Source: Candidatus Bathyarchaeota archaeon
Lineage (GTDB): Archaea; Thermoproteota; Bathyarchaeia; 40CM-2-53-6
Direction: 5' to 3'
NCBI GenBank assembly: GCA_005888755.1
Contig: VBBQ01000035.1
Location: 1-42,581 of the forward strand
DNA length: 42,581 bases
The notes beneath the pieces were generated by a model that made no database searches, was not told where the DNA came from, and saw only the letters and a program-made list of their open reading frames with translations. Both the position numbers and the translations under genes were made by a program. Of the stretch, positions 879 through 15,597 are shown in pieces (within the stretch, counting starts at the first letter, position 1; every line of letters starts with the position of its first letter).

Positions 879-1053
879 GCCCAGGACATGTATGCCGGGC
901 TCGCGCCCTATTCCTGGAATATGGGAGTGCGTAGAGGTAGTATAGCCCGGTCCGCGGCTTGCGGGAGCCGGCCGAGAGTATGCACGGCTGTCACCCGTGC
1001 GACACTCGAGTAATTCGAGCGCGTTGCGGGTTCGAATCCCGCCCTGGGCGCCA
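879..1053 (+). tRNA. tRNA-Asp(GTC) with three non-canonical introns
   Basis: The 5' acceptor strand GCCCAGG (879-885) pairs perfectly with CCTGGGC (1043-1049); G73 is at 1050 and CCA is encoded at 1051-1053. The anticodon stem CACGG/CCGTG encloses loop CTGTCAC with anticodon GTC at 990-992. The T arm is GCGGG/TTCGAAT/CCCGC (1026-1042). Three insertions must be removed for a cloverleaf. One of about 52 nt (886-937) lies between position 7 and the D arm; its ends can slide 3 nt on a repeated AGG, and I could not find a clean BHB for it. One of 23 nt (954-976) is in the D loop: central helix CGGT/GCCG, 3-nt bulges. One of 22 nt (1004-1025) lies between the variable region and T stem: TGCG/CGCG helix, 3-nt bulges. 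The canonical 37/38 site is not interrupted. A TATA-like TTTAAG is about 28 nt upstream. Confidence 0.85.
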
Positions 1054-1420
1054 AACAGTCCCACCAGTCCTCTGTGGAGGTCAAACGCGGCTGTATCCGG
1101 TTAATGCGCAAGGCAGGAAAATCGGCTGTTATCAACCCTAATCTCGAATCTAAGCCTGCGATTTCCAGACACGCCATATTCCACGCCTATCCCTAGGGGA
1201 ATCCGCAGGGATCGAAAACAGCCAGACAAGGCGATAACAAGCCCGTCTCCCGAAAACAAGCCGGGAAACCAGCCCAGACAGAAACAGGTCGTGAAAAAAA
1301 TACCTAGATCATGCTCAAAGTCCCGCGTCGCAAAAAGTGGTCGGGAGGAAGGATACTCATCACGCTTCCAGAACAAAAACAGTACGCCGTCCTCCTTGAG
1401 ACAAACTACAAACTAATTGG
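1054..1420. other. intergenic stretch without a recognisable gene
   Basis: Between tRNA-Asp and the inverted repeat copy. The short frames here (for example 1101-1376 on the minus strand) show no protein-like composition or motif. I see no RNA gene in it. Confidence 0.4.
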
Positions 1421-1583
1421 TAACTTTTCTTTTCGCGTAACTATTCTTTTCTGTCAACTTTTCTTTTTTTCGCTAACTATATCATGACCCCCGGGGTGAC
1501 TGTTTTTCCCACGCCCCGCCCTTCGTGAAAACGCTCAGAATCCACGTTCACTGACCATCGCCTATCCCTTCTTCCTTCGTGAA
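1421..1583 (-). repeat. dispersed non-coding repeat, copy 1 (inverted relative to copy 2)
   Basis: On the minus strand this region matches 7643-7803 of the plus strand. In the 100-bp core (1471-1570 versus 7655-7754) I count 3 mismatches. Beyond the core, toward lower coordinates, there is an A/T-rich arm with weaker, gapped similarity. The copy ends directly against the stop codon of the isomerase gene at 1585. It has no coding potential. It could be a miniature mobile element or a structured RNA; the sequence alone does not say. Confidence 0.85.
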
Positions 1584-1584
1584 A

Positions 1585-2631
1585 TCAGCCGAACATGGCG
1601 CGAATATTCTCCGCTAAAGGCTGACTAACCACACCACGGTCCGTCACAATCCCAGTCACCAGCTCGGGCGGAGTGATGTCGAAGGCCGGGTTCAAAGCCC
1701 CAACGTTCTGGGGAGAAAAGCGCCTCCCGCCAATCAACAGAACTTCTCTCTGATCCCGTTCCTCAATAACCACGCGAGACGGGTCGGTCACCAGATCCAG
1801 CGTTGATACGGGAGCGGCCACATAGAACGGAACGCTGTGGAACTTTGCAGCAAGGGCGATCGGCAGGGTCCCGATCTTGTTCGTGACATGTCCGGTGCCC
1901 AAGATCCTGTCTGCCCCAACGATAACTTTGTCCACCACTCCCTGAGCCATCAGCTGCGCAGCAGCGTTGTCACAGATTACCCGGACTGGAATTCTGTCCC
2001 TAGACAGTTCAAACGCGGTCAACCTGGACCCCTGCAACAGCGGCCGCGTCTCTGTCGCGATCACGGACACATTTTTCCCGTCCTCGACAGCCGAACGGAC
2101 CACCGCCAGCGCAGTACCGTAGCCCGCAGTCGCGAGAGCCCCCGCATTACAGTGAGTCAGCACGGTATCTCCATCCTCGATCAGACCTGCGCCAAAGCGT
2201 CCGATGTTGTGAGCGGCCTCAAGTTCCTCGCGAAGAATCGCATCGGCCTCCCGTCTCAACTCATCACCCAAAGATGCGACCGAGTCGACCTGGAAAGATG
2301 CTTTGAAGACTCGCTCGACAGCCCAGCGAAGATTCACACCCGTCGGCCTTGTCGAGATCAGAGAGTCAGCGGACTTGCGAAGCTGGGACCTCGCCTGACT
2401 CAAATCCCCGTCCCTGATCTTCAACGCGGCCAGAACCAAACCATAGCCACCAGCAACACCGATCAACGGCGCACCTCTGACCTTCATGGACCGGATCGCG
2501 GAACAAACCTGGTCCACGGTCCGCATACGAACATAGACCAGCCTTCCCGGCAGCCTCGTCTGGTCAATAGCCTCCAGAACTCCACTCTTCCATCTAACTG
2601 GTTCGAGAGAGTCTCGGTTTTTCCCAGGCAT
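1585..2631 (-). CDS. mtnA: S-methyl-5-thioribose-1-phosphate isomerase (MtnA/aIF2B-like family)
   Basis: A 348-residue protein of the eIF2B alpha/MtnA fold. Visible signatures are GAPLIGVAGGYG near residue 53, RPTGVNLRWA near 95, THCNAGALATAGYG near 159 containing the catalytic-type Cys, ATETRPLLQGSRLTA near 192 and VGADRI near 238 with the catalytic Asp. MtnA interconverts methylthioribose-1-phosphate and methylthioribulose-1-phosphate in methionine salvage; in archaea relatives can act as ribose-1,5-bisphosphate isomerase, but the N-terminal region here fits MtnA better. Length is normal. It is divergent from endA across an 85-nt gap with a TATA-like element. A repeat copy abuts its 3' end. 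Confidence 0.85.
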   Translation of the reverse strand: MPGKNRDSLEPVRWKSGVLEAIDQTRLPGRLVYVRMRTVDQVCSAIRSMKVRGAPLIGVAGGYGLVLAALKIRDGDLSQARSQLRKSADSLISTRPTGVNLRWAVERVFKASFQVDSVASLGDELRREADAILREELEAAHNIGRFGAGLIEDGDTVLTHCNAGALATAGYGTALAVVRSAVEDGKNVSVIATETRPLLQGSRLTAFELSRDRIPVRVICDNAAAQLMAQGVVDKVIVGADRILGTGHVTNKIGTLPIALAAKFHSVPFYVAAPVSTLDLVTDPSRVVIEERDQREVLLIGGRRFSPQNVGALNPAFDITPPELVTGIVTDRGVVSQPLAENIRAMFG

Positions 2632-2672
2632 TTCTCAAAACTCTGCTACTTGATCCCAATTGTTCGCATGCC

Positions 2673-2680
2673 TTTATAGA
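2673..2680 (+). promoter_or_regulatory. TATA-like element between mtnA and endA
   Basis: TTTATAGA lies 37 nt upstream of the endA GTG and reads as a TATA-like box on either strand, so it may serve one or both of the divergent genes. No start-site data can be seen. Confidence 0.35.
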
Positions 2681-2716
2681 CGCCTGCCCGCCGCTAGCGC
2701 TCTCAAATCGTAACTG

Positions 2717-3247
2717 GTGCCTTGCTTGATGACGATAGAAGTTCTAGAAGCCTTCCTCTCCAAGAACAAAATCTACCTGAAAGAACCCGAGAAACTCATG
2801 GAGCTCCGAGAGAAAGCCTTCGGGACCTTGGCGGAGGACAAGCTCTTCCTGAGCCCCTACGAAACATTCTATCTCGTCGAGAAAAGAAGAGCCCGAGTAA
2901 CTGATGAGAAGACGGCGAAAGAGAAGACGCTCCAACATCTCGTCACAAAACTGTCCGTTGGGAAACCAACAATATGGACAAAGTATCTAGTATACCGAGA
3001 CCTACGCGATAGAGGCTATCTGGTCCGAGAGTCCGAGGGAGGCTTCGACTTCGAAACCTTCGGAAAAGGAGCGACCCGACGACAAGTATCAATCGTCTTC
3101 GAAGGAGGAGAATCCACCCTCGAAAGACTCGCGAGGCTCTCCGCAAAAGCGAACAAGGAAGGCAAAGACCTAGTCCTCGCAGTAATCGACAGACGCACAG
3201 ACATCGTATATTATACGTTGAACACTGAACGGTTCGAAGGAAAATAG
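2717..3247 (+). CDS. tRNA-splicing endonuclease family protein, probable structural (non-catalytic) subunit
   Basis: A 176-residue protein (GTG start; an ATG four codons in, at 2729, is equally likely). The C-terminal half carries the EndA fold signature YLVYRDLRDRGYLV followed by the beta segments of the nuclease domain and LVLAVIDRRTDIVYY. In catalytic EndA the loop VYxxG holds the catalytic Tyr and GHSxYLV the catalytic His. Here the equivalent positions read ETFGKG and RQVSIV, so Tyr is Phe and His is Val; the third residue, Lys, seems kept (GKDLVLAV). Known heterotetrameric archaeal enzymes pair a degenerate structural subunit with a catalytic one and accept non-canonical introns. That suits the intron-rich tRNA genes on both sides. 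The catalytic partner is not in this window. hisS follows after 26 nt, so they are likely one operon. Confidence 0.8.
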   Translation: MPCLMTIEVLEAFLSKNKIYLKEPEKLMELREKAFGTLAEDKLFLSPYETFYLVEKRRARVTDEKTAKEKTLQHLVTKLSVGKPTIWTKYLVYRDLRDRGYLVRESEGGFDFETFGKGATRRQVSIVFEGGESTLERLARLSAKANKEGKDLVLAVIDRRTDIVYYTLNTERFEGK

Positions 3248-3273
3248 CTCCGAGACGGGAGAACCACGGTATC

Positions 3274-4590
3274 TTGTCAGAAGCACAATTCACTCTTCCA
3301 AGGGGAATGAAAGACATTGACCCCGAGGAAATGTCACGCAGGATCTGGCTAACTGACAAGATTCGACAAGAGCTCTGGAACTATGGGTTCCAGATGTTGG
3401 AGCCTAGCCCTGTAGAAAACCTGGAAACCCTCGAGGCAAAATCAGGCCCCGCAGTCAGAGACGAAATCTACTGGTTCAAGGACAAGGCAGAACGAAACCT
3501 CGGACTTCGATTCGACCTCACGGTAGGCATGACCAGGATGGTTGCAAACAGGTTCGACCTCCCAGAACCGATCAAGATCTCATGCATCGGTGGAGTATGG
3601 CGCTACGACGAGCCCCAGTTCGCCCGCTACCGATACCACACACAGTGGGACGCTGAAATCTACGGAGTCGCAGATCCATCGGCCGACGCAGAGATCATCG
3701 CACTAGGCTCCGACATTCTAGAGTCAGTCGGTCTCAAAGACCACTTGGTCAAGATTAGCAACAGAAAACTCGTTGAAGGCTTCCTGCGTGGCCTTGGAAT
3801 TCAGTCCCAAAATGATCTCGATCTCCTGATCAGGATAGTCGACAAATTAGGAAAAATCGGCTCCGAACAGGCAGAGCGAGAATTCACAAGAGCCGGCCTG
3901 TCCAAGGACAAGGTCAAGCGAATCCTAGGCTTCGCAGATATCGGTGGAGACCCGGACAAGGTCCTCGGAGAGCTAGAGAGCAAACTTCCCAAGGGCGAGA
4001 TGATCCACCAGGGTTTCAAAGAACTCTCTGGAACAGTCGACATGATAGAATCCCTCGGAAAAAAGGAGAAGATCAGGATCGACCTGGGAATAGTCCGGGG
4101 AATAAGCTACTACGATGGAACGGTGTTCGAGGCCTACGACCGAGACGGAGAAGACGTGGGCGCAATCTTTGGAGGCGGGCGTTTCGACAAGCTAAGCAAG
4201 ATCTACGGAAAACGCGACATGCCAGCAACGGGAGTCGCAGGAGGCTTCGAAAGACTCATGCTCTCCCTAGAGCGAAAGGATCTGTTCCCTGATATCCAGC
4301 AACACCCACAGGTGTTCGTGGTCACAGTCAACGAAACCGTCTGGAACGAAGCTGTGAAAACAGTACAACTACTCCGAAGCCAAGGCATCAGAACTGACTA
4401 CGATCTCAAACAACGTCCACTCGGCAAACAGTTCGAGTACGCTGACTCGTTGAAGGTAAGGGTATCTCTTGTCTTAGGGCCCAGAGAGATCAAGGAAGGA
4501 AGTGTCCGTCTGAAAAACATGAAAACAGGCGAAGAGAAGAGCGTCAAGCTATCATCTGTAGTGGATCAGACCCGAAAGGCCCTCCAATGA
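3274..4590 (+). CDS. hisS: histidyl-tRNA synthetase
   Basis: A 438-residue class II aminoacyl-tRNA synthetase starting at TTG. It begins with the family hallmark FTLPRGMKDIDP, contains motif 2 (WRYDEPQFARYRYHTQWDAE) with the HisRS-specific residues, the histidine-binding signature GIVRGISYYDG near residue 271, and motif 3 region GGGRFDKLSKIYG through VAGGFERL. The C-terminal 100 residues form the anticodon-binding domain (VFVVTVNE through REIKEGSVRLKN). It charges tRNA-His with histidine in the cytosol. The gene follows endA after 26 nt, suggesting cotranscription of a tRNA-splicing and a tRNA-charging gene. Confidence 0.95.
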   Translation: MSEAQFTLPRGMKDIDPEEMSRRIWLTDKIRQELWNYGFQMLEPSPVENLETLEAKSGPAVRDEIYWFKDKAERNLGLRFDLTVGMTRMVANRFDLPEPIKISCIGGVWRYDEPQFARYRYHTQWDAEIYGVADPSADAEIIALGSDILESVGLKDHLVKISNRKLVEGFLRGLGIQSQNDLDLLIRIVDKLGKIGSEQAEREFTRAGLSKDKVKRILGFADIGGDPDKVLGELESKLPKGEMIHQGFKELSGTVDMIESLGKKEKIRIDLGIVRGISYYDGTVFEAYDRDGEDVGAIFGGGRFDKLSKIYGKRDMPATGVAGGFERLMLSLERKDLFPDIQQHPQVFVVTVNETVWNEAVKTVQLLRSQGIRTDYDLKQRPLGKQFEYADSLKVRVSLVLGPREIKEGSVRLKNMKTGEEKSVKLSSVVDQTRKALQ

Positions 4591-4838
4591 ACCAGGTTGC
4601 CCCAGGGAGGAACAGGATCGAATCCTTTTTCACAAGACAGAAAAGTTTCGAACGAGAACATCCATCATCAGCTTGGTATATTAGGCCCTAATGATCTTCT
4701 CAGTTCCCCGTGGAACTGGTTGAGTTTTCGTTCAAGAACTCGTAACGTTAGACGGAGACGGGTCAGAAGAGAAACTAGAACTAGACTCATTCATGTTGCT
4801 GTTGCAGCTGGATAGCCATCCACGAATGATTCGACTGG

Positions 4839-5267
4839 CTACTCCCTGGGATTTAGATCGTACATTTCGGGTGGATTCTTCGGCAGAACGAAATGGATGT
4901 ATCCGTATCCGTATTTTTCGTGGAATTGATCGCTAGCCTGAACACCTTTCTTGAAGGCCTCTTCAAATCTCCTCCAGTCTTGCGCACGAATAGCCTCACT
5001 CAAAGGATGAAAATGTGTTTTTACGAAGCCGTTCAAGTCTTCGGTGAACTTCGGCCTGAGAGTCGCACCTATTCTGAAGAGGGCGATGACTTGGTTGAGC
5101 TGGTACTGTGCGAGCTTCCAGTTGAGCGCCTTCGCAGCGTAGTAGATGACGTGATACCTTTCTCCAACCTCTTTCATTAGATGGGCCATGCCGTGTTGAG
5201 CCTCGGCGAGCTGTTCGAGGCTAAGTTCTCCGTGTTTTGTCTTAATGACAATCTTCTCGTCTGGCAT
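4839..5267 (-). CDS. helical protein resembling a haem-less c-type cytochrome domain
   Basis: About 142 residues if translation begins at the Met of MPDEKIVIKTKHG; the frame is open 100 codons further upstream but that part overlaps the divergent zinc-ribbon gene. The sequence is helical (GMAHLMKEVGERYHVIYYAAKA, then NWKLAQYQLNQVIALFRIG) and ends GYGYIHFVLPKNPPEM. The layout recalls a bacterial family of small cytochrome-like proteins in which the C-terminal part has CxxCH followed by a Gly-rich turn and an xxLP tail; the corresponding place here reads SDQFH, lacking both cysteines. Homology is from memory and tentative. Function unknown. Confidence 0.65.
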   Translation of the reverse strand: MPDEKIVIKTKHGELSLEQLAEAQHGMAHLMKEVGERYHVIYYAAKALNWKLAQYQLNQVIALFRIGATLRPKFTEDLNGFVKTHFHPLSEAIRAQDWRRFEEAFKKGVQASDQFHEKYGYGYIHFVLPKNPPEMYDLNPRE

Positions 5268-5348
5268 GAACGGGTCGATGGGATTTTCGTAGTGAGTTTC
5301 CTTATAGGCGTAAGGTGTCACGCTAATGTGTGAAGGGGCGGAACGATA

Positions 5349-5573
5349 ATGTGGGTTGAGTTCAAGTGTCCGATCTGTGGAAGAGATCTGGATGATGACA
5401 ATTCGATGGCGAATTTCATGATCTGTAACGAATCGTCTCATGGAACATTGAGGTTTTTCACCGGGGATGGTTGCTTCTTCACTAGCGATAAGAAAGTTGC
5501 TGAGGAACTCACAAAGAAGGGGAAGCGGGTTCACGTCGTAGACCCGCAAGAGTTTTTCGCCAAACAAGCCTGA
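5349..5573 (+). CDS. small zinc-ribbon protein
   Basis: A 74-residue protein starting MWVEFKCPICGRDL with one CxxC knuckle and further cysteines at FMICNESS and GDGCFF, enough for a small zinc site. The rest is a mixed alpha/beta tail ending VVDPQEFFAKQA. It is divergent from the helical gene ending at 4839, with 81 nt between starts, and lies 80 nt before tRNA-Arg. I recognise no specific function. The opposite-strand frame over it is a shadow. Confidence 0.6.
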   Translation: MWVEFKCPICGRDLDDDNSMANFMICNESSHGTLRFFTGDGCFFTSDKKVAEELTKKGKRVHVVDPQEFFAKQA

Positions 5574-5653
5574 GACTTAGGCAAGGCGAGGACCTTAGAG
5601 TCGAACTATTCTTAGGAACAATTAACTAGGATGCATCATAGTCCAACCCTTTC

Positions 5654-5763
5654 GGGCCCGTAGCTCAGCCTGGATAGAGCGGCAGTCAATTCCTGGCCGA
5701 TCCCCCTATGCCTTGAGCGGGTTGAGCTGTAGGTCCGGGGTTCGAATCCCCGCGGGCCCGCCA
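5654..5763 (+). tRNA. tRNA-Arg(CCT) with two 16-nt introns and an apparent C33
   Basis: The acceptor GGGCCCG/CGGGCCC (5654-5660, 5753-5759) is perfect, with G73 at 5760 and encoded CCA. The D stem is GCTC/GAGC; the T arm is CGGGG/TTCGAAT/CCCCG. A cloverleaf needs removal of 5686-5701 (between 30 and 31; central helix CGGC/GCCG, bulges AGT and ATC) and of 5709-5724 (between 37 and 38; CCC/GGG helix with a C-T mismatch, bulges TAT and TGA). Both have the same design: a 2-bp inner stem and 5-nt loop. The spliced anticodon arm is GCAGC / CCCCTAA / GCTGT, giving anticodon CCT and A37. Position 33 is then C instead of the near-universal T. The Arg identity also fits the GGATAGAGC D arm. Confidence 0.85.
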
Positions 5764-5911
5764 CAATAATTTCTTGACAAGCCAAATGGATTTCTGCCCA
5801 TGTGTGAATCTCTTGGGCCTTTTTCTCCTTCAGAATGAGGAATCCACCTAAACGAACCTCCCGAACGCATAGCTTGAAATCTCAGGCTAACCGACCTGAA
5901 TCGTCTTCAAG

Positions 5912-6334
5912 TTGAAAGGATCTATCGACCCGGTTAAGCTAACTGAGAAAGAGATCAGGTTTCTGGAACAGAATGAGTTGTGCAGGTTCGCGACAGCGTC
6001 GAAGAAGGGCGAGCCACATGTTGTACCGGTTTCCTACGTCTGGCATGAAGGTTCACCGTATATCGTGACTGACTACGGGACGAGGAAACTCAAGAACCTA
6101 AGAGAGAACCCTCGCGCAGCAATACTGGTTGACACAGCCGGGACCCAGAAGCTGCTGTTGATCAGCGGCCCAGTCTCGATTATCGAGAAAGGAGAGGAGT
6201 ACCGGAAACTCTACAAGATATTCCATGCCAGGCTGGACTGGGTAAAGCGCGATCCATGGAAGGAAGGCGAAGCACCGTTCGTGAAGATCAGTCCTGCTTT
6301 CAAAGCTGGCTGGGGACTCCGCGGCGAGAAGTAA
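5912..6334 (+). CDS. pyridoxamine 5'-phosphate oxidase-like flavin/F420-binding protein
   Basis: A 140-residue single-domain split-barrel protein with TTG start. The typical order is present: LTEKEIRFLEQNELCRFAT, then GEPHVVPVSYVWHEG, the basic RKLKNLRENPRAAILVD strand that contacts the cofactor phosphate in this family, and a C-terminal FVKISPAFKAGWG. PPOX-class proteins bind FMN or F420 and reduce small molecules, or bind haem; the substrate cannot be read from sequence. It sits alone between tRNA-Arg and a zinc-finger gene. Confidence 0.8.
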   Translation: MKGSIDPVKLTEKEIRFLEQNELCRFATASKKGEPHVVPVSYVWHEGSPYIVTDYGTRKLKNLRENPRAAILVDTAGTQKLLLISGPVSIIEKGEEYRKLYKIFHARLDWVKRDPWKEGEAPFVKISPAFKAGWGLRGEK

Positions 6335-6470
6335 CAGGCGTTCTTTCATCATTCTAAGTCCCCTTTCCCGTTCCGGAACAGTTTGAAAGTGAGACAGTAG
6401 CGCGAACTGGTTACAAGACTCTTTAATAGCGCTGGAACGGCCAACTTCCAATTAGAGCTGACTCGGAAAA

Positions 6471-6854
6471 ATGGCAGATTTCTGTTCCAGATGCGGTAAG
6501 ACGCTAAGCCTCATCGATCCGTTGCTAGAACTCAAAGGATTGAGGTTCTGTGAAGACTGCTACCCCGACGTCAAACGGGAACATGCAGCCGCTAGCATCT
6601 CCGATAAGATGGATCGGAAGAACCGTGCGGCCTTCGCTGACGACGAGAGCGACGAGAATCTTCGCGGATCTATTATCAAGGGTAAGCAAGCCTTGGCGGC
6701 AAAGGAGAACGAGTTCAAATGGGACAATCCTTCTCTCTCTCTGATTGCTAGCGCGCTACGGATTCTCACCGATCAGAACAAGATCATAATGAAGCAGAAC
6801 GAGCTCATACTGAGAGAGCTTGAGAGCCGAACGCCTGCGGTAAAATCGAAGTAA
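6471..6854 (+). CDS. zinc-finger protein with C-terminal coiled coil, unknown function
   Basis: A 127-residue protein. Residues 5-30 form a four-cysteine finger (CSRCGKTLSL ... CEDCYPDV). The middle is polar and charged. The last 40 residues (LRILTDQNKIIMKQNELILREL) have a heptad-like pattern suggesting a coiled coil and hence oligomerisation. A TATA-like TTTAATAGCG lies about 45 nt upstream. I do not recognise the family; a nucleic-acid or protein adaptor role is only a guess. Confidence 0.7.
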   Translation: MADFCSRCGKTLSLIDPLLELKGLRFCEDCYPDVKREHAAASISDKMDRKNRAAFADDESDENLRGSIIKGKQALAAKENEFKWDNPSLSLIASALRILTDQNKIIMKQNELILRELESRTPAVKSK

Positions 6855-6885
6855 GAACCTACCTTCTTCCATCCCCAAACGGGAA

Positions 6886-7095
6886 TGGTCCCGGGGACCG
6901 GAGTCTCATAGAGGTTGCTACCTCTATTTTGAATTCGCCGAACCGGTTTTTCTGGTTCTCCGGCGACACTCCGGTGTCTACTGTTAGCCTGGTAAGGCTG
7001 ACGTGGCTGCGCACTGGGCGCACACCTACAGCGTCTTCGTCGCCCACTGTTCTAGGGGGCGGCTCGGAAGCTCTTCCAGGCTGAGCTACCCCGGG
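6886..7095 (-). tRNA. tRNA-Tyr(GTA) with four introns
   Basis: Read on the minus strand from 7095. Acceptor CCCGGGG/CCCCGGG gives C1-G72, with A73 (6889) and encoded CCA: the identity set of archaeal tRNA-Tyr. D stem GCTC/GAGC. Removing four insertions gives anticodon arm TCCGG / CTGTAGA / CCGGA, variable region GTGTC and T arm GCCGG / TTCAAAT / CCGGT. The introns are 7033-7064 (32 nt, 30/31; helix CTTC/GAAG), 6976-7025 (50 nt, 37/38; CTGT/GTAG with two G-U pairs), 6934-6959 (26 nt, 53/54; CGCC/GGCG) and 6903-6927 (25 nt, 59/60; TTCA/TGAG). Each has a 4-bp central helix and two 3-nt bulges, and cutting between the second and third bulge bases yields exactly this cloverleaf. The exons total 74 nt and the introns 133 nt. 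Confidence 0.9.
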
Positions 7096-7125
7096 ACACG
7101 GCCAAGACGCGACCTTCGCGTCTAG

Positions 7126-7572
7126 TTAAGATTTCTCGGGATCAGGTTGGTGATTTTCTCTTATCCAGCGAGCTAGGTCTCGCAGGCCAATATTGGAGGT
7201 TACGTCGATTACTGGGACTTCGATGTTCCCGACGCGGACGAAGTTGTTGTATTTTGCCATCGGTGCGTGGGATATGTTCGAAGCGTAGATTCTGCCTTTG
7301 ACGTATTCTTCGGGGAGGGCTTCCGGTTCGACGAAGTCTGCTAGGAAGACAACGCCTTCTGCCCAGTAGAGAGCCAGAGGCTGGCCGGACACGTTCATGA
7401 CGAACGCAACCATGGAGGCAAGGTTGGTCTGGCTGGTGAAGCTGGTGAGCCCGGTGACAACGATTTCCTGGGGTGGTGCGTGGATTATGGAGACCAAGGC
7501 GGTTTCGGTTGGCGTAGGAGGGTCGCCTGTGTTAAGGCTTGGTCGGCAGCCTGCTTTGTAACGCGTTTTCAC
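7126..7572 (-). CDS. conserved-looking protein of unknown function
   Basis: Up to 148 residues. The first 25 (Pro/Thr-rich) look non-native, and a TTG at 7497 opening LVSIIHAPPQEIVVTG is a likely alternative start. The remainder has an alternating beta-strand pattern (AFVMNVSGQPLALYWAEGVVFLADF) followed by a helical C-terminus (LRDLARWIRENHQ). No catalytic motif is seen. The upstream side carries repeat copy 2 and a short extra fragment of the same repeat (GTTTTCACGAAGG, 7564-7576), so the annotated N-terminus may be repeat-derived. Function unknown. Confidence 0.6.
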   Translation of the reverse strand: MKTRYKAGCRPSLNTGDPPTPTETALVSIIHAPPQEIVVTGLTSFTSQTNLASMVAFVMNVSGQPLALYWAEGVVFLADFVEPEALPEEYVKGRIYASNISHAPMAKYNNFVRVGNIEVPVIDVTSNIGLRDLARWIRENHQPDPEKS

Positions 7573-7642
7573 GAAGGACGGAATAGATGCCTTCGGCGAA
7601 GAGGCCAGACTCCACAGGTTCCGGTCCAGAACCTAGATTCCG

Positions 7643-7803
7643 TCACGAAGAAAGGAGGGATAGGCGATGGTCAGTGAACGTGGATTCTGAGCGTTTTCAC
7701 GAAGGGCGGGGCGCGGGAAAAACAGCCACCCCGGGGGTCATGATATAGTTAGCGAAAAAATGAATTTTTGGCAGAAAAGAAGTTACGGGAAAAAATTGTT
7801 ACG
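7643..7803 (+). repeat. dispersed non-coding repeat, copy 2
   Basis: The plus strand here matches the minus strand of 1421-1583, with only 3 mismatches in the 100-bp core 7655-7754 and a weaker A/T-rich arm to about 7803. It sits in the 382-nt gap between the unknown gene starting at 7572 and the regulator gene ending at 7955. A shorter fragment of the same element (GTTTTCACGAAGG) is repeated at 7564-7576, suggesting remnants of an earlier copy. There is no open reading frame of quality in it. The rest of the gap (7804-7954) shows nothing recognisable. Confidence 0.85.
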
Positions 7804-7954
7804 GAAAGAGCGAGTTCACGACGGGAGAAAGTTGAGGAATGATCGGTTCCTCTTGGAAAAGCATGCTTATTCGGTGTGGTGGAAGAGCGAAGACCTTTTT
7901 CTGGGATTTCGGCCGGCGCAAATCTATACCTTTTCTACTGATGAAGAGTAGGTT

Positions 7955-8773: not shown

Positions 8774-9251
8774 TCGTACCCTGTATAACGCTTTCCATTA
8801 TTTTCGGTGTGTGTGAACGTCTTCTGCGACGACTCGCAACAACTCCGCTACTATTCTGGTAGCGTCCGGCGTATTTTTTGATCGCGGGCTTTCCAAGTCT
8901 TAACAGAGAGAGCTGGATGAACCTCTCACCCTTTGCAAGATTGACAGCGCTGTCTCCAGAATTATAGAGACTGACAGTGAGCTGCCCGCGAAAGCCCGGG
9001 TCCACCAGAGCAAGACTCGCGAACAATCCTTCACGGGCCAAAGACGAGCGAAGATGTAAAAATCCGACAATACGACCAGAGAGCTCGACCCTTTCGATGC
9101 TAGCAACTAGCGAATGTTGTTTTGGTTTGAGCCGGATTCTCCGATCGACGCGCAGATCCACTCCCGCCGGGCTGAGCCTGAATCCCGGAGGAAAGATTCT
9201 CAGCTCTCCCCTCTTCATTGCAGAAGAGATCTCTTTGTCCGAAAGTACCAT
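8766..9251 (-). CDS. dcd: dCTP deaminase / dUTPase family protein
   Basis: About 161 residues from the Met of MVLSDKEI, the usual family start; a GTG 8 codons upstream is open. Motifs are LRVDRRIRL, the substrate loop LRSSLAREGLFASL with the family RSSLAR signature, VDPGFRGQLTVSLYN, and the C-terminal YQNSSG. These trimeric enzymes make dUMP from dCTP or dUTP, feeding thymidylate synthesis and keeping uracil out of DNA. The C-terminal tail is Arg-rich (ASRRRRRSHTP). The gene overlaps the downstream HTH-PRTase regulator by 8 nt and is divergent from the AlkA-type glycosylase gene, pairing nucleotide-pool hygiene with DNA repair. Confidence 0.85.
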   Translation of the reverse strand: MVLSDKEISSAMKRGELRIFPPGFRLSPAGVDLRVDRRIRLKPKQHSLVASIERVELSGRIVGFLHLRSSLAREGLFASLALVDPGFRGQLTVSLYNSGDSAVNLAKGERFIQLSLLRLGKPAIKKYAGRYQNSSGVVASRRRRRSHTPKIMESVIQGTSG

Positions 9252-9305
9252 TGACAAATCCGCTTCAATTAGCACTCACTATTCAAAGCTTGAAGGCAGA
9301 CTGGA

Positions 9306-9965
9306 TTGACTCAAAAATTGGTAGAGGCAAGTCTGACCGAGAAAGAGGTGTGGGCTCAGGGGATTAAACACCTTAAGAAAAACGACCCCGTCCTCGCAAA
9401 GATCATCAGCCGCCTCGGACCTTACAAGTTTCAGCTGGACGACGATCACTACGAAGCGCTGGTCGGCTCGATAATTTTCCAGCAGCTGGCAGGAGCCGCA
9501 GCGCGTGCAATACTCAACCGGTTCAAACAAATCTATGATGGCAAGATTCCTCGGCCTCGCCAATACCTCGATACTGAAGAGCAACACCTGCGAGCCAGCG
9601 GATTGTCCCCACAGAAGATCCGTTACATTCGAGACTTATCTGAGAGAGTCGAGAACGGCGTTCTAAATCTGGAAAAAATGTCCCACCTTCCTAGCTACGA
9701 GGTTGTGAAAGAACTGGATGAGGTGAAAGGGATCGGGAGATGGACCGCCGAAATGTTTCTCATCTTCGTCTTGGGACGAACGGATGTGTTGCCAGTTGAC
9801 GATCTTGGCCTGAGGAAGGCCGCGCAGAAGACTTATCGACTACGGAAACTACCGACGAAAGAAAAATTCGAACAGCTGTCGAAAAAATGGCACCCCTACT
9901 GTTCCATAGCGACACTCTATCTCTGGAGGAGCCAGGAGAAACCACAAGGCGCTGTGAAATGGTGA
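9306..9965 (+). CDS. DNA-3-methyladenine glycosylase II (AlkA/HhH-GPD family)
   Basis: A 219-residue protein with TTG start. It has the HhH-GPD order: helical region LVGSIIFQQLAGAAA, the helix-hairpin-helix LDEVKGIGRWTAEMFL near residue 140, and the catalytic-Asp segment VLPVDDLGLRKAA near 160. A WHPYCSIATLYLWR C-terminus is typical. It removes alkylated bases in base-excision repair. Divergent from dcd, with about 54 nt between starts. Confidence 0.9.
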   Translation: MTQKLVEASLTEKEVWAQGIKHLKKNDPVLAKIISRLGPYKFQLDDDHYEALVGSIIFQQLAGAAARAILNRFKQIYDGKIPRPRQYLDTEEQHLRASGLSPQKIRYIRDLSERVENGVLNLEKMSHLPSYEVVKELDEVKGIGRWTAEMFLIFVLGRTDVLPVDDLGLRKAAQKTYRLRKLPTKEKFEQLSKKWHPYCSIATLYLWRSQEKPQGAVKW

Positions 9966-9986
9966 CATGGGGTACAGGACTTCTCT

Positions 9987-10678
9987 CTATCTCAGAACGA
10001 AATCCAGAGCACGTCCGAGCTTTAGAGCGAAATCTTTGGGATAGTCGTGGCCCAAACCCTTCTCAATAACGTACTCGGATTCTAGGCCGTTCTGTTTCAT
10101 GCTTGAGTGGAGAACGTTGATCCGCTCGAAGAAACGATCTTTGTCCCCAACTAGTATCCATCCCCTCGAGTCCGGATTCCTATCGGTTTTGACGAAAGAT
10201 GTGAACTCTTCAGAGTGCGACGGGATTATTGTTGAAGCCGGAGCTATCGCGACGAAACCTCGAGCCGGCAAGCTTCTTTTCAAAGCGAGGTAGATTGCAA
10301 GCGTTGCACCCTGAGAGAAACCAGACAGAATTATCTTCTCTTGATCGAGCTTGCAGCTGCTATTCAGTTGTGAATATGCGTCGACAACCTCTCTTTCTGA
10401 ACGAGTCAAGTCATCCCGGCAACGGCTATGAGAGCCGAACGGTTGAGAAGAACGTGGGAGAGCGACAACCACACCTTTCGATAGCGCATGCCTCCAGAGC
10501 CGGGTAAAATCCTCGAAGTCTTCGCCCCTCGGGTGCAGAGCGATCAGTAGGCCCGAACTTCTCTCGGAGAATAGTCGTCAGGAGTAAGAGCGAGATTGTA
10601 AAGTTCGAAGATCTGCTTTTGGAGAACATAGAAATCTTCTGAAGAATCTGACCCGAGATTTGGCGACGGTGGTCTCAC
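9987..10678 (-). pseudogene. alpha/beta hydrolase (carboxylesterase/phospholipase type), frameshifted
   Basis: The C-terminal part (from a GTG at 10472) carries nucleophile elbow GFSQG, acid segment VGDKDRF and catalytic His in GLGHDYP. In the same frame, upstream of that GTG, coding continues without a start: LLIALHPRGEDFEDFTRLW and RHALSKGVVVALP, the expected first strands and oxyanion region. Further upstream the coding sense is in another frame (LQKQIFELYNLALTPDDYSP, start GTG at 10678). One base is missing near 10558-10573. The full protein would be about 230 residues, normal for this family. Either an assembly indel or a recent pseudogene. It is the last gene of a thioredoxin-GNAT-hydrolase run on the minus strand. 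Confidence 0.75.
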
Positions 10679-10696
10679 TGCTATTGTCTCGAGGAA

Positions 10697-11296
10697 TCAC
10701 AGTTCTCTGGCCATAATTAGGCCGTCAAAGTATTTTCCGTGTCTGAAGACTTTGCTGGCGATTATTCCAGCTTCTTTGAAGCCTGCTTTCTCGTAGGCTC
10801 GCCGAGCTATCACATTATCGGCCAGAAACTCTACTTCTAGGCTCCTGAGTCCCGCGCCGCGGCTTTCTCGGACAAGCAAATCGATCATCCTCCGTCCAAC
10901 GCCTTGCCCTCTGTGCTCGCCGATCATGGTAAGTCCAATTTGTCCATGGCGACGAGTGTCTTTGTATCTGCCCTGTGCTACCTCACCATTCGCGATTATT
11001 TTTCCAGCGATTTCTGCGACCATATTGATGACATTTCCTCCCTCTATTGCTACTAGGGTTTGTGCCAACCATTCCGCTTCCTCCTCACGGGTAACCTTCC
11101 TGTCAAACCCTGTGTAGAGGGTCGATTTTGGTTCACCTAGCTTCTCTTCGACGAGACTATTGATGAAAAAGAGAAGACTATCGAGGTCCTCCCATTGTAG
11201 CACGCGCAGAGTTACCTTCTTGCCGCTGGCAAGCGTGAAGCGTTCGTAGACATGACCGGCTTTCAACAAGATCCGCGATGCAGGCGTTCTTGCCAA
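10697..11296 (-). CDS. GNAT-family N-acetyltransferase
   Basis: A 199-residue GNAT-fold protein. The acetyl-CoA pyrophosphate loop RGQGVGRRMIDLL is at about residues 131-143, preceded by the strand GQIGLTMIGE, and followed by the motif B region VIARRAYEKAGFKEAG. The substrate cannot be told; the N-terminal YERFTLASGKKVTLRVL is a common lead-in for amine or peptide acetylases. It starts 3 nt after the thioredoxin-like gene and precedes the frameshifted hydrolase, so all three are probably one transcript. Confidence 0.9.
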   Translation of the reverse strand: MARTPASRILLKAGHVYERFTLASGKKVTLRVLQWEDLDSLLFFINSLVEEKLGEPKSTLYTGFDRKVTREEEAEWLAQTLVAIEGGNVINMVAEIAGKIIANGEVAQGRYKDTRRHGQIGLTMIGEHRGQGVGRRMIDLLVRESRGAGLRSLEVEFLADNVIARRAYEKAGFKEAGIIASKVFRHGKYFDGLIMAREL

Positions 11297-11298
11297 GG

Positions 11299-11859
11299 TT
11301 ACCAGACAATACTGCAGCCGAAGGGAGTTGTCTCGGACACTCGAACCGGGCTATTTGCAAGGAGATCGTCGATCGCGTTTCGGAGGTCACTGATTGTCAC
11401 TCTTTCGGGATTCCTTGAATCGTCTATTCGACCCTTGTAACGAAGCCTCCGTTCCTCGTCCAGCAGGAACACGTGAGGGGTGCATACAGCGCCGTAGGCC
11501 CTCGCAACGGTCCTATCTTCATCTTTGACATAGGGGAAGTTGAACCCTTTCCCCTGATTTCTAAGGACCATTTCAGAATAGGTATCAGCAGGAGAAAGAT
11601 ACGGGTTGTTTGAGTTCAAGGCCACCAACTGGACATTTTTCGGTTCGTAGTCTCTCTGGATCTTGATCATGCGGTCCTGGCAGGCCTTCACTGTTGGGCA
11701 CCCGTTTGAGATGAACAACAGAACGAGCATTCTCTTGTTCTGGAACGATGAAAGAGAGTAGCGTTCCCCATCCACGCCGAGCAGATTCCCGAAATCCGGA
11801 GCGCCCGCTGCTATCGTGAAGGTTTCTGTTCTGACTTGAGGGAGTTCCGCTTCCAACAC
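11299..11859 (-). CDS. thioredoxin-fold redoxin protein (AhpC/TSA-like)
   Basis: A 186-residue protein. After a short N-terminus the redoxin fold begins GAPDFGNLLGVDGERYSL. The redox site is NGCPTVKACQDRM near residue 65, i.e. C-x5-C, in the place where relatives have NHCPYVKA. The cis-Pro region is CTPHVFLLDEE near 134. No signal peptide or membrane anchor is seen, so it is probably cytosolic. It likely acts as a thiol oxidoreductase or peroxiredoxin-like protein; the second Cys placement suggests a disulfide-forming pair. It heads a run with the GNAT and hydrolase genes. Confidence 0.8.
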   Translation of the reverse strand: MLEAELPQVRTETFTIAAGAPDFGNLLGVDGERYSLSSFQNKRMLVLLFISNGCPTVKACQDRMIKIQRDYEPKNVQLVALNSNNPYLSPADTYSEMVLRNQGKGFNFPYVKDEDRTVARAYGAVCTPHVFLLDEERRLRYKGRIDDSRNPERVTISDLRNAIDDLLANSPVRVSETTPFGCSIVW

Positions 11860-11914
11860 CTCTCGTACTCATCGGCCGTCGGTAACGGTGGATGAGCGCT
11901 AATTCTGTTCCTTG

Positions 11915-12454
11915 CTAGAACTTGTCGGGGAATTGTTTCATGATGCCTTGCGAGATCGTGTCCGCGACTGTGTTAATCTCGGTGAAGACATCGTCGAATG
12001 CCGCAACATCATCGTTCCATCTCTTGTCAAGCCGTGCTTCAACCTGTTTCTTCGTCAGGGTCAGATGCTGATGGAGCAGATCAAACATGTCGTCCTTGGC
12101 CCAGTGAGGGTTCGTCTGGCTTAGGAACCCAGCTATCTCGTCAGCGTTCACGGTCCACTTGCTATCTTGCGTCTCGAAGTTCTTCTGGTCTCCAGCCTTT
12201 GCGAACTCGATGAGGTCAACGCCCAAGAGGACGTGCTTCCTCAAGAGTTCAGCGAGTTTTCTGCCTGTTCCTTCGCCATAGTAGGGGACGAACGAGTTGC
12301 CGATGTTATCTGGAGTCCTCAAAAGTCTCTCTTTTGCCGCGACCATATCAGGTGCCTCGTCTAATGCTGAGACAGCGTACTGACGGGTCCAGATTGCATG
12401 GTCTGCCCAGAGCTTGCGCATGTTGGTCTTGAGGGATACTGTCGTCTCATTCAT
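11915..12454 (-). CDS. helical protein of unknown function
   Basis: A 179-residue, all-helical protein. Recognisable features are LWADHAIWTRQYAVSAL at the N-terminus, RLLRTPDNIGNSFVPYYGEG in the middle, LLRKHVLLGVDLIEFAKAGD, and a C-terminal helix with aromatic spacing. Bacterial relatives that I recall (often mislabelled as glycosyltransferases) share the pattern WxxHxxWTR ... LLRNxxDxG ... LLKEHL. Conserved His and Asp could suggest metal or haem binding in a four-helix bundle, but this is inference. Transcribed alone. Confidence 0.75.
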   Translation of the reverse strand: MNETTVSLKTNMRKLWADHAIWTRQYAVSALDEAPDMVAAKERLLRTPDNIGNSFVPYYGEGTGRKLAELLRKHVLLGVDLIEFAKAGDQKNFETQDSKWTVNADEIAGFLSQTNPHWAKDDMFDLLHQHLTLTKKQVEARLDKRWNDDVAAFDDVFTEINTVADTISQGIMKQFPDKF

Positions 12455-12537
12455 GGTTGTAGCCGAATAACTATCTGTTTCTTTTTTAAGCTATCGGCTT
12501 GACCCCGCCGGTCTCAGCTCGTCAGCCATACTAACCG

Positions 12538-13279
12538 ATGGAACCAAGTGCAAGATTCGCCTTGAAAGTCTCGCCCGCCTCGGTAAAACTGGAAACCAAA
12601 ACGATTCCATGGGGCGCAAAGCGGCAAATCAGCATGGTCTACGGGTCACCCCTGACAAAGACCCGTCAGACTCTACTACGATAGTCATTGCACACGGAGC
12701 TAGAAAATCGATGAGTTCTCCCCTCATTACATTTTTCCATGTCGAAATGGCCCGCCGAGGTTTCTTCACTGTCAAGTTCAACTTTCCTTACATGGAGGCT
12801 AGATTTCGGTTGACTAGAACCCCGGACCCAAAAGAGATCCTCGTAGGATGCTTTCGAGAGGTCCTTGGCGAAGTCAGGTCTCGCCAAAGCCCGGAGAAAC
12901 TGGTCATAGGGGGATTGTCGTGGGAGCCGCCGTCGCATCCCATGTTGTCGCCGACAAGCCTGGGAGAAGCGATGTCGATGGACTGTTCTATCTCAGCTAT
13001 CCCATTCACCGCCCGGGAAGACCAGAAGAACTCGGAGTCAATCACCTCTCCCAGATCTCGAGACCCATGTTGTTCATCTCAGGCACACGAGACCCTAACG
13101 CGCGACAGAAGCATCTTGAGGATCTTATTTCAAAACTTGGACCGCAGGCTAGTTTGCACATGGTCGAGGGAGCGGATCACTCTTTCAACCCCCGCAAGGG
13201 ACGCGCGATCTACTTCAAGAGACTTGATCATACTGCGACCGTTCTGGAAGACTGGATAATGACTCGAGTTAGCCATTGA
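12538..13279 (+). pseudogene. alpha/beta hydrolase (KANL3/Tex30-like), frameshifted twice
   Basis: The protein can be followed through three frames. It starts at ATG 12538 (RFALKVSPASVKLETKTIPW), shifts near 12643-12660 to STTIVIAHGARKSM, continues through FNFPYME and LVIGGLSW, then shifts at about 12922 to GAAVASHVVADKPG, YLSYPIHRPG, LFISGTRDPNA and the catalytic-His segment VEGADHSF. The second shift falls exactly in the nucleophile elbow: GLS then GAAVAS, where adding one base would restore G-L-S-M-G. Apart from the shifts the sequence looks conserved, so assembly indels are as likely as true decay. Confidence 0.75.
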
Positions 13280-13411
13280 TGACGGTAGCTTTCACTACGT
13301 CTCCAAGAAATCCCGGGCTGATCTCTGACAAGTATCGTATTGACGTTACCTCTAGCTGGCACTCTGGGTAAGCGTCATTGGAAATAGGCGGATCCTCCGC
13401 CACCGGGCCTA

Positions 13412-13930
13412 GTGGAAAAAATGCCGAAATCAGAACAGACCAGCTGGGTCTTCGCGAACGTCAAGGGAGGAATAACACGCGCCATCAGCCAAATACGAAG
13501 GATCAATAGTGTGGAATCAGTCACCCCAGTGACAGGAAGATTCGATCTCGTCATCAAGCTGCGAACCAACGAGCCCAACAAGGCGTTCACCATTGTCGAG
13601 AAGATCAGAAAGATCAAAGGGATCACCTCTACTCAGACGGGAATTTCCCTACAGAAAATCTCGAACACGAAAAAGGACGAATCAGAAGATCCTATCGCCT
13701 TCGCACTAGTGAAGGTGAAGGGAGCCTTCAAGAACGTTCTACAAAAAATCAAGAGCTTCCCGAACTTTGTCGAAGCCCACATAATACCTGGAGAGTTCGA
13801 CGTATTCGCCGCATTCCACGGCTATAGTCCCGAGGAACTCCTGGAAACCTCCGTTGAGAAACTAGGCAGTGTCAACGGAGTAACCGGTATGGAGACCCTC
13901 GTTGCCTGGACACCAACAACACCGTACTAG
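13412..13930 (+). CDS. tandem Lrp/AsnC RAM-domain protein without HTH
   Basis: A 172-residue protein (GTG start; ATG three codons on). It contains two copies of the alpha/beta RAM (AsnC C-terminal) fold: about residues 10-80 (WVFANVKGGITRAISQIR ... VTPVTGRFDLVIKL ... TQTGISLQKI) and 95-170 (AFALVKVKGAFKNVLQKI ... HIIPGEFDVFAAFHG ... GMETLVAWT). There is no DNA-binding helix-turn-helix. Single RAM proteins of this kind bind amino acids or modulate full-length Lrp regulators; the tandem form could be a pseudo-dimer. The two halves align in length and in the GxFD motif. Confidence 0.85.
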   Translation: MEKMPKSEQTSWVFANVKGGITRAISQIRRINSVESVTPVTGRFDLVIKLRTNEPNKAFTIVEKIRKIKGITSTQTGISLQKISNTKKDESEDPIAFALVKVKGAFKNVLQKIKSFPNFVEAHIIPGEFDVFAAFHGYSPEELLETSVEKLGSVNGVTGMETLVAWTPTTPY

Positions 13931-14320
13931 AGATCAAGCTCGATCCGACTCTCCGGCCTCTTCTTTTCCTTGAAAACAGTTCAGCTTAATAGAAGTCTCC
14001 AGGAATTTCCCAGTCGCCGGTGGCCGTCAAGACTCCGTAAGCATTGAGTGAAATCCATTTGTTAGGTTTTTCCAATTTGCTCTATGCCGACAGAGGCCTT
14101 TCTTCCATTCCCGCTGGGAAAGAAGAAGCGGATTGTATAGAGAGGTTCGAGTCTCATGGCCCTTCCGAAGTCGCAACAGTACTAATTCTGTTAGAGAAAT
14201 CCTCGGGGTAAATGATAGGGATATGAGCGGTGGCGGGCCCGGTGAGATGCAAGCTAACGGTTCAGAACTAACGATTTGAGCCTACTGCCATCTCGCGCCT
14301 AGAAATTTTCGTGTTGGTTC
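13931..14320. other. intergenic stretch without a recognisable gene
   Basis: A 390-nt stretch between the RAM protein and a short minus-strand frame. It includes a G/C-rich patch at about 14226-14310, but I could not fold it into a known RNA. A TTCGAG segment near 14148 resembles a T loop but lacks a matching stem. Confidence 0.35.
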
Positions 14321-14500
14321 CTAAGCTTGCATTGACTTGCTGTTGCTTGACCCACTCTGCATAGGTCGAGTTCGAAAAACTGAAATGTAGTCTGGTATAC
14401 AGTTTCTCATGAACCTGGCCTTGTCTCCTTTGAAGTGAAGTGAGTAGCCAACATCACTTTCATCAACCTGTTTCACAAAATATGGGGTCAAGGATTCCAT
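14321..14500 (-). CDS. short protein or gene remnant, unknown
   Basis: A 59-codon frame with protein-like composition: MESLTPYFVKQVDESDVGYS, then LHFKGDKARFMRNCIPDYIS. In-frame coding character continues upstream of the ATG for about ten codons (GSIGYLE) to a stop, which suggests the C-terminal remnant of a longer gene or a small protein with an unusual start. It lies divergently next to the homing endonuclease gene. No family recognised. Confidence 0.4.
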   Translation of the reverse strand: MESLTPYFVKQVDESDVGYSLHFKGDKARFMRNCIPDYISVFRTRPMQSGSSNSKSMQA

Positions 14501-14536
14501 TTCTAGGTATCCAATCGAGCCGGTTCTTCAATCGAC

Positions 14537-15454
14537 ATGAGGACTGCAAGTGTGACCTTAACTGAGAGTACTACGAACATCTCCGGAAGAGGCACTCCTC
14601 TTAATCGTATCTCGTTACCCGTCCGAAACGACGTTCACATCCGGAAATATTTACCCCTCGACATCAGGGTGAGGTTGCGGTCTCGGGTCCTCGAGCTTGC
14701 AAAGCTTTCGATGAGTTATCAACAAATACAAACCGAAATCTTCGAGTCCACTAATATACGGCTGTCTAAAGGCTCGATAAGCGGATGGGTCCGAGGAATC
14801 CATAATCCCTCGGGCGGAAAGAACAAGTTCCGCGCGGTCGCTTCTCCAGAACTTGCATATGTGATCGGCGTGATCGCGGGCGATGGTAATCTTAGCGTTC
14901 ATGGATACAATTACGAGATGCTACTGAGTGTAACAGACCATGATTTCGCCGCGGAGTTTAGCAGATGTCTCGCGGAGATTCTCGGAAAATCGAGCCTCTA
15001 CAAGGTTCGATGGAGCGAGAAGAGGAAGAGGTGGATAGTCCAAGGTTCCAGTATTCTCTTGCATAGGTTCCTAAGAGGAGGATGGCAACTACTGAAAAGA
15101 TATGTCGAACACTGCTACCGGTGCCGAGCATCCTTTCTCAGGGCCTTATTCGATGGCGAGGGCACAATAGCCCGGAATAGAATTTCAATTTACAATACCG
15201 ACTTGTCTCTCTTATTTTACATCAGGCAGCTTCTTTCCAAGTTCGGAATTGAAACGCGAAGTCCCTACGTTAACACTCTAGCAGGCTCAATTCTCAAAGA
15301 CCCTCGGACAGGCATATTCTACGAAAGACGAAGAGACTGCTACACCCTGGCTATTAGAACCGCAGATAGCCTACAATTTGCGAGGCGTATTGGCTTCGCG
15401 ATACAAAGGAAGAGTAGGCTACTCCCGCAGCCTCTTGCTTTTGGGTTGTTTTAG
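14537..15454 (+). CDS. freestanding LAGLIDADG homing endonuclease with N-terminal HTH
   Basis: A 305-residue protein. Residues about 55-92 form a helix-turn-helix-like region (SYQQIQTEIFES ... LSKGSISGWVRG). Two LAGLIDADG motifs follow: AYVIGVIAGDGNL near residue 113 and FLRALFDGEGTIA near 202, each with the acidic residue used for metal binding. So it has the two-motif architecture that acts as a monomer. It is not inside an intein or an obvious intron. It stands next to the intron-containing tRNA-Arg(TCG) gene, whose 24-nt intron is far too short to have hosted it. It may be a solitary mobile endonuclease or a domesticated regulator. Confidence 0.9.
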   Translation: MRTASVTLTESTTNISGRGTPLNRISLPVRNDVHIRKYLPLDIRVRLRSRVLELAKLSMSYQQIQTEIFESTNIRLSKGSISGWVRGIHNPSGGKNKFRAVASPELAYVIGVIAGDGNLSVHGYNYEMLLSVTDHDFAAEFSRCLAEILGKSSLYKVRWSEKRKRWIVQGSSILLHRFLRGGWQLLKRYVEHCYRCRASFLRALFDGEGTIARNRISIYNTDLSLLFYIRQLLSKFGIETRSPYVNTLAGSILKDPRTGIFYERRRDCYTLAIRTADSLQFARRIGFAIQRKSRLLPQPLAFGLF

Positions 15455-15497
15455 AAAAACAACTCGTCCAATTTATTTTTTCTCAGAAAGTTAAATG

Positions 15498-15597
15498 CGG
15501 GCCCGGTGGGATTCGAACCCACGATTTTGGGCTCTCTTCGCACTGAAATGGATGGCTCCGAAGGCCCACGTCTTGGTCCTGGCTCGACTACGGGCCC
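15498..15597 (-). tRNA. tRNA-Arg(TCG) with one canonical intron
   Basis: On the minus strand the acceptor GGGCCCG pairs with CGGGCCC, with G73 at 15498; CCA is not encoded. D arm GTC/GAC, anticodon stem TGGGC/GCCCA, loop CTTCGGA with anticodon TCG, T arm GTGGG/TTCGAAT/CCCAC. A 24-nt intron (15534-15557) lies between positions 37 and 38 with a textbook BHB: central helix CTTC/GAAG, bulges GGA and AGA, outer helix equal to the anticodon stem. Confidence 0.93.

Follow-up and report, generated by a model that had tools for sequence, protein, structure and literature searches.

We analyzed contig VBBQ01000035.1 of a Bathyarchaeota genome (GCA_005888755.1); the whole stretch, 42,581 nucleotides (nt), is called the window. 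All four of its tRNA genes are interrupted, by ten introns in total. These are almost certainly functional, ordinary tRNA genes that carry archaeal bulge-helix-bulge (BHB) introns, which would be cut out by an alpha-beta splicing endonuclease, with the exons joined by RtcB, and the same state extends over the genome. The genome is a metagenome-assembled genome (MAG) of 2.01 Mb in 48 contigs (95% complete), of which the window is contig 32. The tRNA genes were read with a parser written for this analysis, which scores the cloverleaf and permits introns wherever a BHB can form. The genes and their introns, with the tRNA positions between which each intron lies, are as follows.

905..1050, plus strand: tRNA-Asp(GTC), introns 909-934 (4/5, 26 nt), 954-976 (20b/21, 23 nt) and 1004-1025 (48/49, 22 nt)
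5654..5760, plus strand: tRNA-Arg(CCT), introns 5686-5701 (30/31, 16 nt) and 5709-5724 (37/38, 16 nt); C33
6889..7095, minus strand: tRNA-Tyr(GTA), introns 7064-7033 (30/31, 32 nt), 7025-6976 (37/38, 50 nt), 6959-6934 (53/54, 26 nt) and 6927-6903 (59/60, 25 nt)
15498..15597, minus strand: tRNA-Arg(TCG), intron 15557-15534 (37/38, 24 nt)

The count (Asp, three; Arg(CCT), two; Tyr, four; Arg(TCG), one) is exactly that of an earlier note made from the letters of the window, and the parser also agrees with it on the positions: three of the ten introns use the 37/38 site, in Tyr, Arg(CCT) and Arg(TCG) only, and the other seven are non-canonical. A BHB motif was formed at both splice sites of every intron, with all four central pairs in nine introns and three of four in one. 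Two of the Tyr motifs have weak points, one strict inner pair at 30/31 and the use of two G-U pairs at 37/38. The window genes scored 42-49; the chance control, 499 kb of the same loci reversed and read on both strands, gave one match with a score of 20.7. No fifth tRNA gene was detected in the whole-window parser scan of both strands, which caught three of the four genes; Arg(CCT) required a wider beam anchored on the T-arm.

The splice sites were also checked with ARAGORN, a program independent of our parse, over intron-bearing genes of the whole genome including the four in the window. When the genes were spliced as parsed, the intended anticodon was returned for all 38. With the unspliced genes it was returned for 1 of 32, and when equal lengths were removed 7 nt off place, for 9 of 32; six hand-spliced genes entered this test in spliced form only. 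Two other readings of the window genes were discarded. A hairpin in the variable region of tRNA-Tyr had been considered as a fifth intron. It belongs to the 50-nt intron at 37/38, because this parse restores a canonical tRNA and a related locus (L119) keeps the same two-hairpin form. The reading of Arg(CCT) as a tRNA with anticodon GTT and one intron was overturned by relatives and by looser parser settings.

Related loci showed the same genes with and without particular introns. In tRNA-Arg(TCG), five of eight aligned loci, the window included, have an intron of 24 or 39 nt, and three (L117, L118 and L124) have none with identical exons. The same four introns of tRNA-Tyr are present in eight of nine loci; L119 lacks exactly the 30/31 intron and has extra sequence in the variable region. 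In tRNA-Arg(CCT), eight of twelve loci have the 30/31 intron, and L115, L119, L123 and L127 have an intron at 43/44 instead. All three introns of tRNA-Asp are kept in six of six aligned loci. Intron-minus relatives confirm the junctions of three of the ten window introns (Arg(TCG) 37/38, Tyr 30/31 and Arg(CCT) 30/31), and the exons in these natural intron-minus copies are unchanged or nearly so. Over the 15 genomes of the family in which the Arg(TCG) gene is readable (the locus of G007 is cut off and was dropped), an intron of 24 to 39 nt is present in 12 and absent in three, and tRNA-Arg(GCG) is intronless in all 13 loci read. Pairing of the intron hairpins is kept despite letter changes, for example at Tyr 59/60 between L114 and the window. 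These alignments show single introns that come and go between close relatives, within one genus.

Since the genome is a MAG, pseudogenes or assembly errors might explain interrupted genes. However, in other assemblies (up to 12 copies were aligned) the exons are conserved and the introns recur at identical positions, the window genes are the only copies found of these tRNAs, and the spliced products of the interrupted genes are canonical. This explanation is therefore very improbable, and we keep to functional genes with BHB introns.

To what extent the window represents the genome was given by an intron-aware census. It detected 43 tRNA genes, of which 41 are interrupted, the exceptions being Leu(CAG) and Arg(GCG). 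Thus the proposal that interruption is a genome-wide state, made in the earlier note, is supported, and its opposite, that most other tRNAs would be intronless, fails. The 40 resolved genes have 80 introns, 58 of them non-canonical. The automatic census, from which candidates with a parser score below 40 were dropped before the count, gave 34 genes with 70 introns, 16 of which are at 37/38: two genes have no intron, six have one, 16 have two, eight have three and two (Tyr and Phe) have four. The six hand-spliced genes add ten introns, six of them at 37/38. A tRNA-Cys gene was not found, and the census may miss further genes. An A-box pattern search gave 56 matches and its backward control 126, and it was therefore used for suggesting candidates only; its Cys, x240 and x241 candidates were not parsable as tRNAs. 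In tRNA-His (L021, contig 3 of G000), a 28-nt intron lies at 34/35, within the anticodon itself. The state appears less pronounced in the order's other families, where many Rfam tRNA matches are of 73-76 nt, the intronless length.

The 70 introns of the automatic set were compared in all pairs. Gly(TCC) and Gly(GCC) 53/54 showed a similarity of 0.62, far above the shuffle maximum of 0.39, and two further pairs (0.47 and 0.45) were slightly over it. The genes of the Gly pair seem to be paralogous. Transposition of introns between tRNAs was rejected as the main source of introns in this genome.

The predicted loss of such genes to standard tRNA finders, which the earlier note expected to miss or misname three of the four, was borne out on the window. 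ARAGORN recovered one of the four genes from the raw sequence (Asp, called at 957-1053 with a wrong 5′ end). Rfam placed one above the cut-off, Arg(TCG). It labeled Arg(CCT) as a weak tmRNA and did not detect Tyr or Asp; run over the whole genome, the Rfam tRNA model reached Arg(CCT) at 49.3 bits.

Genes for the splicing machinery are present in the genome, and one of them lies in the window.

2717..3247, plus strand: second tRNA splicing endonuclease (EndA) subunit, non-catalytic, beta-type (PF01974, 44.8 bits; PF02778, 30.8 bits)

This gene adjoins the gene for HisRS, and when its product was aligned to 1a79, the Tyr and His of the triad were not kept. The gene for a catalytic EndA subunit is on contig 46. 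Its best solved relative is 3p1z_B, and its Tyr, His and Lys align to the residues of 3p1z_B which we take to be the catalytic triad. An aligned stretch, GKPVGIPKPKPDQDFEVP, is present where the crenarchaeal loop is expected, on our assumption of the place and role of this loop. With one catalytic and one non-catalytic subunit gene, as read from the alignments with the triad assumed above, the endonuclease has the features of the heteromeric (alpha-beta) type, and the subunits are predicted to assemble as a heteromer. RtcB is also encoded (568 bits). In our proposed pathway, the alpha subunit from contig 46 and the beta subunit from the window would cut the pre-tRNAs at the BHB motifs, and RtcB would ligate the exons after cutting. 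For neighboring introns such as those at 30/31 and 37/38 of tRNA-Tyr, the first would have to come out before the motif of the second is fully formed. The two-subunit enzyme would accept relaxed motifs and unusual positions, and by this tolerance introns could accumulate almost anywhere in a tRNA. Excerpts of two reviews tie this EndA type to introns at odd positions (PMC4033280, PMC4090602). Apart from this, an inverted repeat (1444-1582 and 7643-7781; arms of 139 nt, 94% complementary, 6 kb apart) encloses the EndA and HisRS genes together with two tRNA genes.

Several points weigh against our interpretation. The genome is an incomplete MAG. Three interrupted genes (Glu-TTC and two Leu) are without resolved introns, and six more had to be spliced by hand. 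The 37/38 motif of Arg(CCT) is the weakest, with its three of four central pairs, and the spliced Arg(CCT) has C33 instead of T33. The 5′ ends of the Asp, Asn and Phe genes are ambiguous. Furthermore, we infer splicing in the cell, and its order, from the sequence.

C33 departs from the near-universal T33 in two tRNAs. It was observed in all 13 copies of tRNA-Arg(CCT) (window 5702-5708) and in all eight copies of tRNA-Arg(TCT) (L006, minus strand), counts that include redundant loci. In L366, a relative at a greater distance, Arg(TCT) was read by eye as having T33.

The ambiguity of tRNA-Asp arises from a copy of its acceptor strand.

879..885, plus strand: GCCCAGG, identical to the Asp acceptor strand and upstream of it; a possible true tRNA 5′ end or a partial duplication

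The earlier note had placed the start of the gene at 879. An exact acceptor copy does stand there, at the usual spacing from a TATA-like box, and it is kept in six of six aligned copies. However, the best BHB sets the 5′ end at 905, giving a 26-nt intron. The mature tRNA-Asp is identical with either end. Exact 7-nt acceptor-strand copies lie 19, 13 and 4 nt upstream of the Asp, Asn (L017) and Phe (L026) genes, respectively. These are three of 34 genes, and all three belong to a set of five in which the first intron precedes position 10.

The published figures compared below are those in excerpts of the papers cited. In the tRNAscan-SE 2.0 paper, archaeal tRNA genes have up to three introns each, the record is 71 introns in 46 genes (Pyrobaculum calidifontis), and the mean number of tRNA introns is 0.84 in Thermoproteales and 0.21 in archaea (PMC8450103). 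The resemblance to Thermoproteales drawn in the earlier note is valid in kind: the introns are short BHB introns, mostly non-canonical, with several per gene, as in P. calidifontis (PMC8450103). However, the organism belongs to a soil Bathyarchaeota lineage. Its HisRS relatives are soil Bathyarchaeota MAGs at 97%, 88-93% and 70-72% identity, the closest named matches (97% and 88-93%) placing it there and not in the Thermoproteales. The density, 80 introns in 40 resolved genes with four each in Tyr and Phe, also exceeds the Thermoproteales figures in print (PMC8450103). As for soil archaea, 92-95% of tRNA genes are interrupted in the Asgard lineages Atabeyarchaeia and Freyarchaeia, with 228 introns in three genomes (PMC11291895), and thus the state described here is not unprecedented. 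The two cases are alike in that most tRNA genes are interrupted, often by non-canonical introns (over half of the Asgard genes have several), whereas Bathyarchaeota are a different phylum; the Asgard excerpts state neither a largest number of introns per gene nor any endonuclease genes next to tRNAs (PMC11291895). Judged by their listings, none of the papers returned by searches of the open-access literature reports tRNA introns in Bathyarchaeota or Bathyarchaeia.

An unexpected lead came from the neighborhood of tRNA-Arg(TCG), where the following two features were observed.

14711..15451, plus strand: free-standing LAGLIDADG endonuclease gene (PF14528, 56.9 bits, above the cut-off), 46 nt from tRNA-Arg(TCG) and convergent with it
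14233..14263, minus strand: decayed tRNA-Arg fragment (3′ end), across the LAGLIDADG gene from tRNA-Arg(TCG); its exact core is 15-16 nt with one mismatch, and the rest was judged by eye

LAGLIDADG endonucleases belong to a class of DNA-cleaving enzymes for which the mobilization of introns is known. The acidic residues are kept: Asp58 is invariant in 11 rows, and the second motif has Asp or Glu. This genome has one more copy of the gene, at a distance of 120 nt from tRNA-Thr(GGT). The family was surveyed as all 27 distinct open reading frames (ORFs) of at least 70 bits from searches of 21 and 256 genomes, pieces of broken ORFs being counted once. For 19 of them, a tRNA gene is no more than 160 nt away, and a rough estimate of this adjacency by chance is 1% per ORF. 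Seven species are adjoined: Arg-TCG, Arg-CCG, Arg-TCT, Lys-TTT, Lys-CTT, Thr-GGT and Pro-CGG. Three of the 19 tRNAs were identified by eye (Thr in L288, Arg-TCT in L290 and L291), the others by parser, Rfam or known place. In all 19 loci the 3′ end of the ORF points to the tRNA. Of the remaining ORFs, one adjoins a tRNA fragment at a distance of 2.3 kb from Arg(TCG), one has no nearby tRNA, and six (L246, L249, L251, L253, L286 and L298) form a subgroup directly upstream of a gene that by eye encodes a zinc ribbon. On the far side of the ORF, 9 of 17 loci have a decayed copy of the facing tRNA end that scores over the 95% shuffle level, and eight of these copies begin at the tRNA end. In L243 (contig 58 of G011), the LAGLIDADG gene and an intact tRNA-Arg(TCG) have three separate tRNA-Arg 3′-end fragments around and between them, a pattern suggestive of repeated entry of elements.

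On the most cautious reading, the LAGLIDADG genes are elements that lodge next to tRNA genes. Whether they are also related to the introns can be considered in two ways. One is that they are selfish elements which insert at tRNA genes, the tRNA being repaired by partial duplication, with no relation to introns; we give this about an even chance. The tRNA-end fragments on the far side are consistent with it, and so is the finding that, in other families of the phylum, such ORFs also adjoin tRNA genes that lack introns: among 20 further ORFs picked from matches in 398 genomes of the phylum, a tRNA gene lies just downstream in ten (six by parser, four by eye), and of these ten tRNAs the parser reads four as intronless, to which reading by eye adds one. 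However, the insertion junctions have decayed and are not defined at single-base level, and 8 of the 17 loci have no fragment above the shuffle level.

The other is that the endonucleases spread introns: a tRNA allele is cut by the enzyme, repair copies in the interrupted allele with the endonuclease gene, and a tRNA-end fragment is left. The position and direction of the 19 ORFs at seven tRNA species fit such homing, as do the fragments in the nine loci. In L117 and L118 both the 1.3-kb insert and the intron are absent, the empty site being ~156 nt against 1.4 kb in the window. At Arg(TCG), an intact or open ORF is accompanied by the intron in five of five genomes (one ORF is 2.3 kb away and one is cut by a contig end). 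In contrast, the intron is also present in 7 of the 10 genomes with no or a broken ORF, and the difference is not significant (Fisher p = 0.51). The intronless neighbor tRNAs in other families argue against it too, and most introns have no such gene nearby, with two strong ORFs against 80 introns in this genome. The Gly(TCC)/Gly(GCC) pair is the single clearly alike intron pair from different tRNAs. Thus the link to introns is possible but unproven, and spread of introns by these genes seems unlikely. We are equally doubtful of its wider form, in which a phylum-wide free-standing LAGLIDADG family homes to tRNA genes with partial tRNA duplication, is a source of intron gain and turnover, and is caught in this genus with tRNA-intron homing in progress. 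The idea that an intron gives immunity to the endonuclease is not supported as a rule, because some neighbor tRNAs elsewhere are intronless and the Arg(TCG) test is non-significant.

Known systems resemble parts of this arrangement. In the excerpt on Caldiarchaeum, an insertion at tRNA-Thr(GGU) has an ORF flanked by a tRNA fragment on one side and by a tRNA gene with an intron on the other, and an intron was gained between close relatives (Sugahara 2012, PMC3293823). Whether that ORF encodes the same enzyme was checked on copy b4, found beside tRNA-Thr(CGU) by the published coordinates. It had no Pfam match and therefore does not look like this LAGLIDADG family, and the identity was rejected. 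The Caldiarchaeum genome does hold a member of the family, beside tRNA-Gly(TCC). LAGLIDADG genes of archaeal 16S rRNA introns belong to the same protein class, and homing there can bring along a neighboring short intron by co-conversion (PMC4496867). In that case the gene is within the intron, whereas here it is free-standing beside the tRNA gene (PMC4496867).

The intron-rich state itself is already known in kind, and the genome described here is a further example, from soil Bathyarchaeota. In such genomes most tRNAs escape general tRNA finders, and therefore these genomes can look less complete than they are. The lineage is as intron-rich as any of the published cases compared above, comes, by its source names, from soil and not from hot springs, and has a candidate mobility gene directly beside some of its tRNAs; the elements may possibly also bring introns. 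This lineage bears on how tRNA genes of archaea came to be fragmented and on what transports their introns.

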